The notes beneath the pieces were generated by a model. It was not told the origin of the DNA and did no database searches. It saw nothing but the letters and a program-made list of their open reading frames with translations. From Oceanibaculum nanhaiense (GTDB lineage Bacteria; Pseudomonadota; Alphaproteobacteria; Oceanibaculales; Oceanibaculaceae), in the NCBI RefSeq assembly GCF_002148795.1, contig NZ_MPOB01000006.1:124001-188000 (forward strand): 64,000 nucleotides of DNA, written 5' to 3'. Within the stretch, counting starts at the first letter, position 1, and the number at the start of each line of letters is the position of its first letter. The translations under genes were made by a program, and so were the position numbers. Below, piece by piece: positions 107 through 9,778 of the stretch.

Positions 107-1834
107 ATGGTGGACACACTGTCGGCACGGACTACGGAGAGAAGAACGTCAGGAGCGCCGGTGGAAAGGCTGAACAACAGTTCCCTGCTCTCCGCGACCG
201 CCATCGTGCTTCTGCTGGCGATGGCGACTCTGGCTGTCTATCTGACGGGCGGCACCCAAAACGCAGCCCCCCATCTTTATTATATCCCGATCATTTCTGC
301 CGCCTTCCTGATCGGTCCTGGCAGCGGAATCGCAACCGCCCTCGCCGCGAGCCTGCTGTGCGGCCCCTGGATGCCGCTCGATGTCGAGTCCGGCACCGCC
401 CAGATTCTCGTCAACTGGATCGCCCGCAGCGGCAGCTTCCTGCTTATCGGCATCGTGGCCGCCCTGTTCCGCCGTAACCTTGACGGGCGAATCGACAAGT
501 TCCGCGACTTCGCGCTGCACAATCCGGTAACCGGCCTGCCGAACCGTGCCGCCCTGGAGGACAGGCTGGCACCGCGCCTCGACAAGCCCCCCGACGATGG
601 CAGGATGATTGCCCTCGTGAAAATACGCATCACCCGGTTCGAGGAAGTCGTCTCCACCCTCGGCTACGAGCAGGGCGAAAAGCTGATGAGGCTGCTTGGC
701 GACCGGCTGCGGGAAAGTCAGACGGAAGACGAGCCGGTGCACAACATCAATCACGGCCGCTTCGCGGTCATCGCCGAGATCGGCACCCCGGAAGAAGCCG
801 TGAAGATCGCCCGCCGTATGCTCGACAGCGTACACAAGCCAATCTTGCTGGACGGTATCCCTGTCACCGTCGGCGCGCATGCCGGCATTGCCCTCCATCC
901 GGAACATGGCGGCACAGCGTCGCAATTGCTGCGCGCTGTCTCGCAGGCCACCGAAATGGCCGTCGAGCGCAATGCCGATTGCGTCATCTTCGATCCGGAG
1001 GCGGGCGAACAATACCGGCAAAAGCTGCTATTGCTGTCCGACATACGCGCCGCCCCGCGTACCGGCCAGCTCATGCTGCACTACCAGCCGCAAACCCGGC
1101 TTGGCGACGGACACTGCATCGGCGTGGAAGCGCTGTTGCGCTGGTGCCATCCGACACGCGGCATGATCCCGCCCAACCAGTTCATTCCACTGGCGGAAGC
1201 CACGGGGCTGATCTCGCCGCTGACCCTGTGGGTGGCCCGCACCGCCATCCGGCAGCTGAAACTCTGGGGAGAAGCGGGTATCGACCTCTCCATCGCCATC
1301 AACCTGTCCGCCCGCGACCTCGACAGCAAGACCATCCTGCGCGAGATCGAGGGGCTGCTGGACAGCCACAAGGTGCCCCCCGGCAAGCTGACGCTGGAGG
1401 TAACGGAAAGCGCCATCATGCAGTCCTATAAGACCGCCGTGCCCTTGCTTGAGCATATGGCGGAGATCGGCTGCACCATCGCCATCGACGATTTCGGCAC
1501 CGGTTACTCCTCCCTCGCCTCGCTGCGCCATTTGCCGGCGACGGTCCTGAAGCTGGATGGCAGCTTCTGCATCGATTTGTCCGCCGATGTCCGGCAGCGG
1601 CAGATCGTGCGCTCCACCATCGGCATGGCGCACGAGCTGGGGCTGAAGGTTCTGGCGGAAGGCATCGAGACCGCAGAATCGCTGGCGGAGATGCGCGCCC
1701 TTGGCTGCGATGAGGGCCAGGGCTATCTGATCTCCCGGCCGATACCGGAATCCGAGTTCCGCAGCTGGCTGAGCGCAAACGGGAAAACCCCCGGCCAGGC
1801 GGCCGGGGGTTCCCGAGAAGCAGAGCGTTCCTAG
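107..1834 (+). CDS. Membrane-bound EAL phosphodiesterase with degenerate GGDEF domain
   Basis: Predicted to hydrolyse cyclic di-GMP at the inner membrane. Residues about 26-120 hold four hydrophobic segments resembling a DUF4118/KdpD-type membrane sensor. A GGDEF-fold domain follows (about 135-300), but its signature is replaced by NHGRF (215-219), so cyclase activity is not expected. The EAL domain (about 315-560) keeps E341-A-L, N399, E431, the pair D461-D462, K482, E518 and Q538, so it looks catalytically competent. The ATG at 107 has only a weak ribosome site. It converges on flgE with 6 bp between the stops, next to flagellar genes, which fits a role in switching between swimming and sessile states (inference). 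Confidence 0.9.
   Translation: MVDTLSARTTERRTSGAPVERLNNSSLLSATAIVLLLAMATLAVYLTGGTQNAAPHLYYIPIISAAFLIGPGSGIATALAASLLCGPWMPLDVESGTAQILVNWIARSGSFLLIGIVAALFRRNLDGRIDKFRDFALHNPVTGLPNRAALEDRLAPRLDKPPDDGRMIALVKIRITRFEEVVSTLGYEQGEKLMRLLGDRLRESQTEDEPVHNINHGRFAVIAEIGTPEEAVKIARRMLDSVHKPILLDGIPVTVGAHAGIALHPEHGGTASQLLRAVSQATEMAVERNADCVIFDPEAGEQYRQKLLLLSDIRAAPRTGQLMLHYQPQTRLGDGHCIGVEALLRWCHPTRGMIPPNQFIPLAEATGLISPLTLWVARTAIRQLKLWGEAGIDLSIAINLSARDLDSKTILREIEGLLDSHKVPPGKLTLEVTESAIMQSYKTAVPLLEHMAEIGCTIAIDDFGTGYSSLASLRHLPATVLKLDGSFCIDLSADVRQRQIVRSTIGMAHELGLKVLAEGIETAESLAEMRALGCDEGQGYLISRPIPESEFRSWLSANGKTPGQAAGGSREAERS
1781..1814 (+). terminator. GC-rich hairpin inside the 3' end of the EAL gene
   Basis: An 11-bp perfect stem (1786-1796 pairs with 1801-1811, loop AGGC), with a short outer extension, lies within the last codons of the phosphodiesterase gene. 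No T-tract follows. It sits just before the convergent flgE stop, so it may end or stabilise transcripts from either side. Confidence 0.45.
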
Positions 1835-5876: not shown

Positions 5877-5914
5877 CGGATCGCACCTCGTGCATGAAAG
5901 TCGGGCTTTCAGCA

Positions 5915-5929
5915 GCAAGGTACGGGCCA
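5915..5929 (-). promoter_or_regulatory. Sigma-54 (-24/-12) promoter of fliK-flgD-flgE
   Basis: On the minus strand the sequence reads TGGCCCG-TACC-TTGC. This matches the RpoN consensus TGGCACG-N4-TTGC except for one base, with the essential GG and GC at the right spacing. It lies 39 nt upstream of the fliK ATG, giving a predicted leader of about 30 nt. An FlbD-type sigma-54 activator is encoded at 44216-45604. The match is seen in sequence; its function is inferred. Confidence 0.7.
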
Positions 5930-5950: not shown

Positions 5951-6059
5951 CAAACCATTAGTTGGAATAAATCGTTGCCGCGACGCAAGCTGGGCCGGTT
6001 TCCCCCGGCATTTTCTGCTCGCCTGACGGTGGCGTTGGGCAAATATTGCCGGGCCGTTC

Positions 6060-7415
6060 TCAGCCGCGCGGCAGGCCGACCACGCCCCGCACATCGGCGC
6101 CATTCAGCTTGGCCCCGCGGATATCGGCATTGGTCATGTTGGCATCCAGCAGTACGGCATCGCTGAGATTGGCGCCGCGCAGATTGGCACCGGTCAGGTC
6201 GGCGCCTTCCAGATCGGCGGCGAACAGATCGGCACCGGAGAAATCGCAATTATCCAGCCGCGCATTGTTCAGCTTGGACGGCCAGTAGGCGATGGTCGCC
6301 CCCTCGATCGGCACCGGCCCCAGACGCGCGCCCGTCAGATTGGCCCCCGACAGGGTGGCGCGGGACAGGTTCACACCACGCAGATCGGCATGCGACAGGT
6401 CGGTTTCGCGCAGATCGGCGAAGGACAGGTCGGCCATCATCAGACCGACCTTCATCAGATTGCCCTTCTTCAGCACGACGAAGGTGAACTTCCCGCCGGC
6501 GAGATTGAGGTCGCTGATGTTCTCGCCGGTCATGTCGAGCTCCGAGAAATCGGCCCGCTTGCCCTCCGACCCGCCGCTGTCGATCCAGAGCACATGCTCC
6601 TCGACCGCATTCTTCAGGCTGACCGAAGCATTTTCCAGCCGGCGCGCCATACGGGCATTATCGGTCTTGGCGACAGAGAGATCGACAGCATCCAGGATCG
6701 CGCCCATCAGGTCGGAATCCTTGAGATTGGTGGACAGCAGCGTCGCCTGGCTCAGGATCGCGCCATGCAGGATGGCCCCTTCCAGATTGGCGTGCGACAG
6801 GTCGGCGCCCAGCAGGTTACAGCCGGTCATGTTCGCCTTCGACATGTCGGCGCGGATGAATTTGGCGCCCCGCATGACGGCGTCCGTCAGATCGCTCTGC
6901 ATGATGAAGGCGTTGGACAGCTTCGATCCGCTGAGGTCCGAATTGCGCGCATTGATCGAGCGGGCATCAGACGCGGTGCCGGTATCCTTTTCCATCGGCG
7001 TCAACTCGCCCTTGCTGGACTGGAACAGCATCCCGTCCCGCAGATCGGATTCGATCACCCTGGCGCCGATCAGCTTGGCCTTGCGCATCCGGATGCCGCG
7101 CAAATCCGACTTCTTGATGTCGGCGCCGGTGAGGTCGGCCTCCGACAGGTCGGCAGCGAACAGCACCGATCCATGCAGCTTCGTGTTCTTCAGCGTGGCG
7201 CCGATCAGCTTCGCACCGGTCAGGTCGGCATCGGACAGGTCGGCATCGGTAAAATCCAGATAGGACAGATCGGCCATCTTCAGATTGGCGCGGATGCCGC
7301 CCCGCTTGCGCTCCAGGAAATTCCTGTGCCGTTGGAGAATCGGCACCAGCTCGTCCTGCGTATAGCGTTGCCGCGACATGGCGCCATCGCTCTTCAAGTC
7401 GCCGGCACTGGACAT
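6060..7415 (-). CDS. Pentapeptide-repeat protein
   Basis: A 451-aa protein made mostly of A(D/N)LSxA-type pentapeptide repeats, in blocks at about residues 45-130, 150-245 and 290-450. These should fold as right-handed quadrilateral beta helices. The blocks are separated by a short spacer near residue 140 and a longer one around 255-285 containing EEHVLWIDSGG. No signal peptide or membrane segment is seen. The N-terminus (RYTQDELVPILQRHRNFLERKRGG) is helical and basic. AGGAA precedes the chosen ATG. It lies 105 nt downstream of the kinase gene on the same strand, so it is probably the third gene of the VWA-kinase cassette. Its molecular function is unknown. Confidence 0.85.
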   Translation of the reverse strand: MSSAGDLKSDGAMSRQRYTQDELVPILQRHRNFLERKRGGIRANLKMADLSYLDFTDADLSDADLTGAKLIGATLKNTKLHGSVLFAADLSEADLTGADIKKSDLRGIRMRKAKLIGARVIESDLRDGMLFQSSKGELTPMEKDTGTASDARSINARNSDLSGSKLSNAFIMQSDLTDAVMRGAKFIRADMSKANMTGCNLLGADLSHANLEGAILHGAILSQATLLSTNLKDSDLMGAILDAVDLSVAKTDNARMARRLENASVSLKNAVEEHVLWIDSGGSEGKRADFSELDMTGENISDLNLAGGKFTFVVLKKGNLMKVGLMMADLSFADLRETDLSHADLRGVNLSRATLSGANLTGARLGPVPIEGATIAYWPSKLNNARLDNCDFSGADLFAADLEGADLTGANLRGANLSDAVLLDANMTNADIRGAKLNGADVRGVVGLPRG

Positions 7416-7520
7416 GATCGGTTCCTGTCAAACCCTCCGCCGAAGCGAAGGCAGCCGTTAGCGGCCTCTGGGGACCGTTCTTGAATGGTTGGTCCGATTT
7501 TACCGCGCTTTGGCGGGAAG

Positions 7521-9047
7521 TCACGCTTTGCCGCTAAAGGCCGTTTCCGCAAGCAGCGACGCGGCAGCCTCGGCACGCCGCGCATAGGGGCGCAGGAACC
7601 GGCTGTCAGCCCCGAAAGCATCCGCCGCCAGCCGGTAGGCAGCGACCAGAGCAGGGGCGCTTTCCGGCGTTGGTGGACCGGCGGCGAAGCTTGCCCGCAA
7701 CTGCCGCAAGCGGTCCAGCCGCCCTTCGGCCTCGGCGACGGCCTGCGCAATGGGCCGCCCATCCGGCAGGATCAGTGCCCCAACCAGCGGATTGGCCAGC
7801 GGATTATCGCCAAGATCCGGCATCCGATGCCAGGCCGCGACCAGCGCCTCGGCATCGTCGGGGGTGCGCTCCAGCACGGTCTTCAGCCGCGTGACCGCCG
7901 GCAGGGCCGCCGCCATCCGGCCCAGCCTGTCCGCCTCGCCCGCGAATTCGGCGCGCTGCCACAGCAGCGGATGGTGCGTCCATAAAAAGGCCTGGCGCAT
8001 CAGGTCACCCGCTTCCAGCGCCTTGCGCAGACCAGCGGCCATCAATTCCCCGGCGGCCTCTGAATCGGCAAAGCTGTCGATGCCGAGATCCGCCCGGCGC
8101 GCGCACCACGGGCACGGGCCGGATGACGCCGCCCGGAAATGGCCGGGCTCTTTCGCGCACAGCACCAGATCCTCCAGCGCCGTATCCAGCGCCGCCACCC
8201 ATTCCGACGGGGCCGGCCGCGCCGCCGGCTGGCGGTGCCCATCGACGAAGCAGCGCCGCACCAACCCGCGAAGCGCCGGGTGCAAGGCGTTTGGCGTCAC
8301 CGCGAACGGCCCGGGCCGTTGCGGGCTGACGGCAAGGCCGGGATAATGCCCGGCCCGCACCAGCCCATCCAGCGCCGGCGGGTCGCCCGGCCCCTGCCAA
8401 AGTCCGGCGAAAGGATGGTGCCCCAGCAGCAGCATGTGGATCAGCACGCCCAGCGCAAAGCGGTCATGGCTCTGGTCGCGGTCGATGGCGGCAAGATCCT
8501 TGCCGACCAGTTCCGGCGCAACGAACCCCTCCGCCCCCACCGCACAGCGATGCATCTGGCCGGCCAGCGTGAACTGCACCGAATCGGCGTCGATCAGGGT
8601 GATCCGGGCCTTCGCATCGACCAGCAGGTTTTCCGGCTTCAAATCGCCGACGGTGATCTCCGCCGCGTGCAGCCGCCCCACCAGATCGGCCAGCCGGCGC
8701 GCGGCGACATGCAGGTGATACCAGGTGAAGCCGGGCGCCTGCGCCAGCCGCAGCCGCGCATTGGCCAGCACGGTGAGCGGCTGCGCATCCTCGATCCGGG
8801 GCATCAGGAAGCCGATGGTGCGCCCTGCCTCGTCCCGCAGTGCCGAAACCGGCCAGGCCACGCCCGCGACCGAGCGCGCCGGGTGAAGCAGCAGCGCCGC
8901 CAGCTTCACCGCACGTTCCGGCACGGGCCGGTGATAGAGCTTCGCCACCAGCCCCGGCCGGTCAGTGGCACACAGCCGCCCCTCCCCGCCTTCGGCCAGC
9001 ACCGCCCCCAGCGCGACCGGCTGGCCGGTGGCCGAGTCAACCAGCAT
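7521..9047 (-). CDS. Ser/Thr protein kinase of the YegI / TerY-P type with C-terminal zinc-ribbon-like motif
   Basis: Predicted cytoplasmic protein kinase. A Gly-rich loop (EGGEG, 19-23) and VAK lysine (K36) form the N-lobe. The catalytic loop is VGDLKPENLL (D135, K137, N140), with HR of the HRD motif lost. The metal motif is LIDADSVQF instead of DFG, a form I associate with kinases linked to TerY-like VWA proteins. An APE-like VAPEL and DRFALGVLIHMLLLGHHPF complete the C-lobe. After the kinase domain, C298, H304, C313 and C316 (CPWC) could bind zinc. The remaining 180 residues are helical, with no recognised domain. The ATG overlaps the VWA stop (TGATG), so the two are translationally coupled. 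Confidence 0.85.
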   Translation of the reverse strand: MLVDSATGQPVALGAVLAEGGEGRLCATDRPGLVAKLYHRPVPERAVKLAALLLHPARSVAGVAWPVSALRDEAGRTIGFLMPRIEDAQPLTVLANARLRLAQAPGFTWYHLHVAARRLADLVGRLHAAEITVGDLKPENLLVDAKARITLIDADSVQFTLAGQMHRCAVGAEGFVAPELVGKDLAAIDRDQSHDRFALGVLIHMLLLGHHPFAGLWQGPGDPPALDGLVRAGHYPGLAVSPQRPGPFAVTPNALHPALRGLVRRCFVDGHRQPAARPAPSEWVAALDTALEDLVLCAKEPGHFRAASSGPCPWCARRADLGIDSFADSEAAGELMAAGLRKALEAGDLMRQAFLWTHHPLLWQRAEFAGEADRLGRMAAALPAVTRLKTVLERTPDDAEALVAAWHRMPDLGDNPLANPLVGALILPDGRPIAQAVAEAEGRLDRLRQLRASFAAGPPTPESAPALVAAYRLAADAFGADSRFLRPYARRAEAAASLLAETAFSGKA

Positions 9048-9778
9048 CAGACAGCCCAGCCCTCGACCGGCGGCAGGTCGATATCGTCAGGATCGACCCG
9101 CGCGGTCGAGAGCCGCCGCATTGAGCTGGACAGCCAGCGGAACAGCGCGCCGAAGCGCACGCCCTTCAGCTTCAGCGGCGGCCGGTCGGACGGCGACAAT
9201 TCGGCCAGCAGCGCGAAATCGGCGCCCTCGACGCCGACCGCGAAGAAGGCTAGCTTCTTCTCCCGCTCGCCGTGGCGGATCGCCGCCGCCGCCTCGCGCC
9301 ACACCTCGCCATCGGTCGGCGCGCCGTCGCTCAGCGCGAACAGCCAGGGCCGGTGATAGGGCACGCCGGCCTCCCGATAGAGCCGCTTCCGCGCCTCGAT
9401 CATGTCCAGCGCCACCAGCAGCGCCCCGCCCAGCGGCGTGTCGCCCGCAGCATTCAGCGCCGGCACGGCGAATGCCTCGGTGCGCGCGAAACCCTTGGCG
9501 ACGCCAATGCCGCCGCCACAGGTGACGATGGCGAGATCGAGCCGCAGCCTTGTCAGCGGATCGGCCGAGATGTCGGACAGGAAGGCGGCGATGCCGGCAT
9601 TCAGCTCCGCGATCGGGGCGCCATCCATCGAGGCCGAGCAGTCCAGCACCAGCACGACCGGGCAGCGTGTCTCCAGATTATCGGCGAAATCGCGGACATC
9701 GCCGACCAGTTCGACGAACTCCGCGTCGATGGCCTTGTCGATCCGCCAGCCGGAGGCAACCACCATATCTTGCGCCAT
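9047..9778 (-). CDS. TerY/YegL-like von Willebrand factor A domain protein
   Basis: A single VWA domain with an intact metal-ion adhesion site: DCSAS (46-50), T114 in GDTPLGG, and D151 in LSDGAPTDG. This 243-aa size and the C-terminal FRWLSSSMR motif fit the TerY/YegL family, which works with a dedicated kinase. The reading frame is open to 9946, but ATG 9778 (MAQDM) is chosen because the upstream residues look non-coding and AT-rich; no good ribosome site is visible for any start. The stop overlaps the kinase start by one base. The usual PP2C phosphatase partner is absent. Its target is unknown. Confidence 0.82.
   Translation of the reverse strand: MAQDMVVASGWRIDKAIDAEFVELVGDVRDFADNLETRCPVVLVLDCSASMDGAPIAELNAGIAAFLSDISADPLTRLRLDLAIVTCGGGIGVAKGFARTEAFAVPALNAAGDTPLGGALLVALDMIEARKRLYREAGVPYHRPWLFALSDGAPTDGEVWREAAAAIRHGEREKKLAFFAVGVEGADFALLAELSPSDRPPLKLKGVRFGALFRWLSSSMRRLSTARVDPDDIDLPPVEGWAV

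Follow-up and report, generated by a model that had tools for sequence, protein, structure and literature searches.

A VWA-kinase pair of the YegL/YegI type without a PP2C phosphatase, and its pentapeptide-repeat neighbor, in Oceanibaculum

Gene sets that encode a VWA protein, a PP2C phosphatase, and a kinase are widespread in bacteria, and presumably they are the sets that go by the name TerY-P. (A literature search for TerY together with PP2C found no paper.) We know of no established signal or target for these sets, nor of a role for the VWA protein. At one locus of Oceanibaculum nanhaiense, intact VWA and kinase genes occur in a genome without a phosphatase of this kind, and they are followed by a gene for a pentapeptide-repeat protein (PEN). 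How did the pair come to lack its phosphatase, and does PEN work with the kinase? The locus provides a natural test of the need for the phosphatase, and it offers one testable candidate partner for the kinase, namely PEN, with support from gene neighborhood that is confined to one genus.

The window (the whole stretch of 64,000 nucleotides that was analyzed) carries the three genes on the minus strand, in the transcript order VWA, kinase, PEN:

9047..9778, minus strand: VWA protein of the YegL type, 243 amino acids (ATG at 9778, stop codon at 9047; PF00092, E = 5.5e-5)
7521..9047, minus strand: Hanks-type kinase of the YegI type, 508 amino acids (PF00069, E = 2.4e-12)
6060..7415, minus strand: PEN, pentapeptide-repeat protein, 451 amino acids (PF00805, E = 2.4e-70)

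These open reading frames and their Pfam matches bear out the coordinates and features proposed in an initial annotation, which was made from the sequence alone. Its description of the spacing was also accurate: the start codon of the kinase gene overlaps the stop codon of the VWA gene (TGATG, seen in the sequence), and the gap between the kinase and PEN is 105 nt. Upstream of the VWA gene, on the opposite strand, is dprA, while 3' of PEN, on the same strand, are fliK-like, flgD, and flgE genes (all named by inspection of their translations). The GC content has no break across the locus.

Sequence comparisons place the VWA-kinase pair, by descent, among the VWA-PP2C-kinase sets (YegL/YegI, TerY-P type). 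In E. coli K-12, the genes yegL, pphC (yegK), and yegI are in the same relative order as the VWA and kinase genes of the window. Sequence identity is 50% between the VWA protein and YegL and 30% between the kinase and YegI; profiles built from relatives match YegL (2e-94), PphC (5e-63), and YegI (4e-106). In alignments of 15 homologues, residues D46, S48, S50, and D151 of the VWA metal site (MIDAS) are invariant and T114 is nearly so, which agrees with the earlier description of this site as intact. K36, D135, D153, and D155 of the kinase are invariant as well, and so is a cluster of one histidine and three cysteines that is probably a zinc site. The initial annotation was right that a zinc-like motif is present, but its numbering (C298 and H304) was off by one, as the residues are C297 and H303. 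YegL and YegI have the same catalytic residues and the same C/H/CPWC cluster.

9326..9643, minus strand: span of the VWA metal-site residues D46, S48, S50, T114, and D151 (alignment of 15 homologues)
8628..8648, minus strand: catalytic loop of the kinase, GDLKPEN, with D135 (alignment of 15 homologues)
8103..8159, minus strand: C297/H303/C312/C315 cluster of the kinase (invariant in 15 homologues)

We defined a triad by a YegL-type VWA protein with an intact MIDAS, a YegI-type kinase with the catalytic residues and the C/H/CPWC cluster, and a PP2C gene. The window has the first two, and the loci of this genus lack the third. The structure model of the kinase has a mean pLDDT of 92, and the best structural matches listed for it are protein kinases; from about residue 331 onward the model is helical. 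At 508 amino acids the kinase is shorter than YegI (648 amino acids), and its hydropathy indicates no membrane segment, whereas some relatives have one and YegI has one that is predicted to be transmembrane.

The C-termini of YegI-type kinases were of two kinds, with either a membrane segment or a long, apparently soluble region (L010, L011, L047, and L136 versus L043, L045, and L046). Some of the kinases with a membrane segment seem, by eye, to have a helix-hairpin-helix motif.

The phosphatase is the main difference from the E. coli set, which includes a PP2C, whereas in the window there is none and the VWA and kinase genes overlap directly. (A PEN gene after the kinase is another feature of the window that differs from E. 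coli.) According to one report, which cites primary papers, YegI of E. coli autophosphorylates and PphC dephosphorylates it (PMC13232886). The nearest kinases (about 33-43% identity) and VWA proteins (47-53% identity) in the class are those of G209, G127, G101, and G116. All four of these sets include PP2C and none has PEN in the stretch that was read (about 5 kb), and the complete kinases of G209, G127, and G101 are longer than that of the window (600-790 versus 508 amino acids).

As first noted from the sequence, the VWA, kinase, and PEN genes of the window have no PP2C gene among them or next to them. Furthermore, a triad-specific PP2C profile and PF00481 had no match in any of the four genomes of the genus, PF13672 had no match in the window's genome, and no PP2C of the triad type was found in that genome. 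It does encode one SpoIIE-type domain (G000:C4), and this protein could act on the pair in trans.

We checked VWA matches of the YegL type for PP2C and kinase genes within about 1.5 kb. Outside the genus, all three genes were found at 12 loci in the class sample (289 genomes), at 7 more loci in the phylum sample, and at 4 more in another class. VWA and PP2C were found together at 1 further locus in the class sample, where the sequence stretch ended, and at 5 loci in the other class that had no kinase in the stretch. (One contig-end locus in that other class was uninformative and is outside the count, as are G222 and G549, whose VWA is of a more distant type.) Altogether, PP2C lies beside VWA at 29 of 29 informative loci outside the genus, including 23 of 23 at which both VWA and kinase were seen, versus 0 of 4 genomes within it (G000, which is the window's genome, G001, G002, and G003). 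The earlier statement that VWA-kinase pairs come with a PP2C gene holds outside the genus, and among the sampled loci the absence of PP2C is a real exception that extends across the genus. The place of PP2C in the triads is between VWA and kinase, and in the window this place is closed by the TGATG overlap. The initial annotation had PEN occupying the "third slot", which was mistaken, as PEN follows the kinase.

The two genomes left out of this count have a VWA set of another kind, in which two VWA genes are close to each other (L118 in G222 and L127 in G549); in G222 these are followed by a PP2C gene.

The VWA proteins of the genus form a single clade (support 100/100) among PP2C-bearing VWA proteins, which fits one loss of the phosphatase. 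Because support for the deeper parts of the VWA tree is weak (86/72), the argument for loss comes mainly from the presence of PP2C everywhere else, and because the four genomes are one lineage, they represent one evolutionary event. Most likely, PP2C was lost once, in the ancestor of the genus. Our best explanation, with a probability of roughly 0.75, is that the locus is a reduced YegL-PphC-YegI (TerY-P type) set whose PP2C was lost in this ancestor. The kinase would still phosphorylate itself and a target, and the VWA protein would be its metal-dependent partner. With no cognate phosphatase, the phosphate might be taken off by another enzyme, lost with turnover of the protein, or left in place. 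PEN would be a beta-helix binding protein that was placed next to the pair in the ancestor of the genus and was retained there.

PEN is made of tandem pentapeptides that are predicted to form a right-handed beta helix, as judged from the PF00805 profile and the predicted structure. The model (mean pLDDT of 90) has two beta-helix stretches with an alpha helix before each. HetL, Np275/276, QnrB1, and MfpA have the same fold, but PEN is longer than these and differs in having two helix stretches, each after an alpha helix. Against the curated NCBIfam models for Qnr, MfpA, and HetL, PEN scored far below the cut-offs for Qnr and MfpA, and below that for HetL.

Is PEN an independent neighbor, so that the pair and PEN merely lie on a common stable stretch upstream of flagellar genes? 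We consider this about an even bet. The PEN family is present in 90 of 289 genomes of the class (E below 1e-40), often in multiple copies, with five in the window's genome, and outside the genus the distributions of PEN and the pair are independent. The PEN proteins of the genus loci form one clade, whose sister is a single protein from G093 (support 100/99; 52% identity). This sister is encoded among TPR and glycosyltransferase-41 genes, near a different kinase-like protein; no VWA-kinase pair is near it, and none was found in the G093 genome. Of the other PEN homologues that we examined, none neighbors fliK-flgD-flgE or a VWA-kinase pair. The outside triads that we examined all lack PEN in their vicinity. 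The linkage of kinase and PEN was conserved within one genus only. Also, there is a candidate promoter for PEN itself (see below). On the other hand, the block has stayed intact although both of its outer sides changed between congeners.

Namely, all four genomes share the order VWA-kinase-PEN (kinase-PEN gaps of 105, 104, 56, and 43 nt), and kinase identity between sub-lineages of the genus is about 60%. The longer block VWA-kinase-PEN-fliK-flgD-flgE is intact in G000, G003, and G001, and in G002 as far as the contig reaches. By inspection, its left neighbor is dprA in G000 and G003 (so dprA adjoins the block in just 2 of 4 congeners), a GntR-like regulator in G002, and a response-regulator-like gene in G001. 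The gene beyond flgE in G000 and G003 differs from that in G001 (again, named by inspection).

Three features near the ends of PEN bear on how these genes are transcribed:

7497..7524, minus strand: promoter-like hexamers over the kinase stop codon, a possible PEN promoter (a consensus match only)
6004..6053, minus strand: inverted repeat CCCGGCA...TGCCGGG just 3' of the PEN stop codon, ftr-like (from the sequence)
5914..5929, minus strand: sigma54-type promoter before fliK (conserved in four genomes)

All four genomes of the genus keep the hexamers (GTGACT-N16-TA(A/G)A(A/C)T) at the kinase stop codon, as judged by a pattern that was written after the sequences had been seen. The kinase C-terminus that lies under them reads in different frames among these genomes (GKA-stop versus GDFG-stop). 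Judging from sequence, it is possible that they are PEN's own promoter. The gap between PEN and fliK is about 183 nt, and in each of the four genomes it contains a sigma54-type promoter (GG-N10-GC) about 50 nt 5' of the fliK ATG. In the other genomes of the genus, both halves of the inverted repeat have changed and pairing has apparently been kept. We take the repeat to resemble the ftr sites of FlbD from Caulobacter. One paper describes FlbD as a sigma54 activator that acts on flagellar genes, and it cites the ftr sites of FlbD (PMC3096577); a literature search for FlbD ftr consensus sites found no paper. Because the PEN-fliK gap contains a sigma54-type promoter and an inverted repeat, fliK-flgD-flgE is probably a separate transcription unit, and PEN would either end the upstream unit or form one by itself. 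We also considered a place for PEN in the flagellar operon, which is not the simplest reading, given the conserved sigma54-type promoter of fliK itself.

It is doubtful that VWA, kinase, and PEN are one co-transcribed module, in which PEN is a substrate, effector, or regulator that the kinase binds or phosphorylates. The conserved order, with outer neighbors that differ, is consistent with such a module, and fliK's own promoter leaves PEN on the VWA-kinase side. Similarly, in cyanobacterial Ser/Thr kinases of the SpkB type, pentapeptide repeats are fused to the kinase (PMC2176072), while in the window the repeats have a gene to themselves, beside that of a YegI-type kinase. Weighing against the module are the restriction of the linkage to one genus, the G093 sister of PEN that exists without the pair, the possible PEN promoter at the kinase stop codon, and the lack of a nearby PEN gene in the outside triads that we checked. 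A functional link between the kinase and PEN is possible, but we think it unlikely that signaling came to do without a cognate phosphatase because PEN took over, either as an effector that is phosphorylated or as a brake on kinase activity.

The initial annotation had suggested that PEN is the substrate or effector of the pair, which is a reasonable guess, but our results do not support it, given how widespread the family is without the pair. Nor do they support a replacement of the phosphatase by PEN, which is not at the PP2C position. The annotation had also listed findings that would count against its proposal. One of these, an order that is not conserved in relatives, does not apply within the genus, where the order is kept. 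Two others were found: a PP2C gene is regularly with the pair (outside the genus), and the distribution of PEN is unrelated to that of the pair (for the PEN family). A fourth, a promoter of PEN's own, is possible given the conserved hexamers.

More improbable still is that the six genes from VWA to flgE are a motility unit in which the kinase regulates assembly of the flagellar hook. The intact block would agree with this, and SpkB, a kinase with fused pentapeptide repeats, affects motility in Synechocystis (PMC2176072). But fliK has a separate conserved promoter of the sigma54 type, and fliK-flgD-flgE is near neither the outside triads that were checked nor the outside PEN homologues that were examined. 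Finally, a phage-defense kinase system like PD-T4-6 or MADS is very improbable: the kinase core matches the PD-T4-6 and MAD6 models, but this is the common kinase core only, with no match for VWA and no significant match for PEN, and all four congeners carry the genes, which adjoin housekeeping and flagellar genes.

We rejected a general linkage between PEN and kinases. The kinase-like neighbor of the G093 sister of PEN (L086 11502-13517) was treated as a chance neighbor because its orthologue in G000 is on a different contig than PEN, beside apparent type VI secretion genes. These two genes (L141 6164-8209 on G000:C5, which adjoins the secretion genes, and the G093 gene, which is separated by about 650 bp from that of the PEN sister) encode a divergent kinase-like protein of about 680 amino acids, and each is beside a glyoxalase-family gene. 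A paralogue on G000:C3 is about 25% identical to the G093 kinase-like protein. G093 also has a cluster of several TPR and glycosyltransferase-41 genes (L086 and L139, G093:C23), which is perhaps for glycosylation of the surface or of flagellin.
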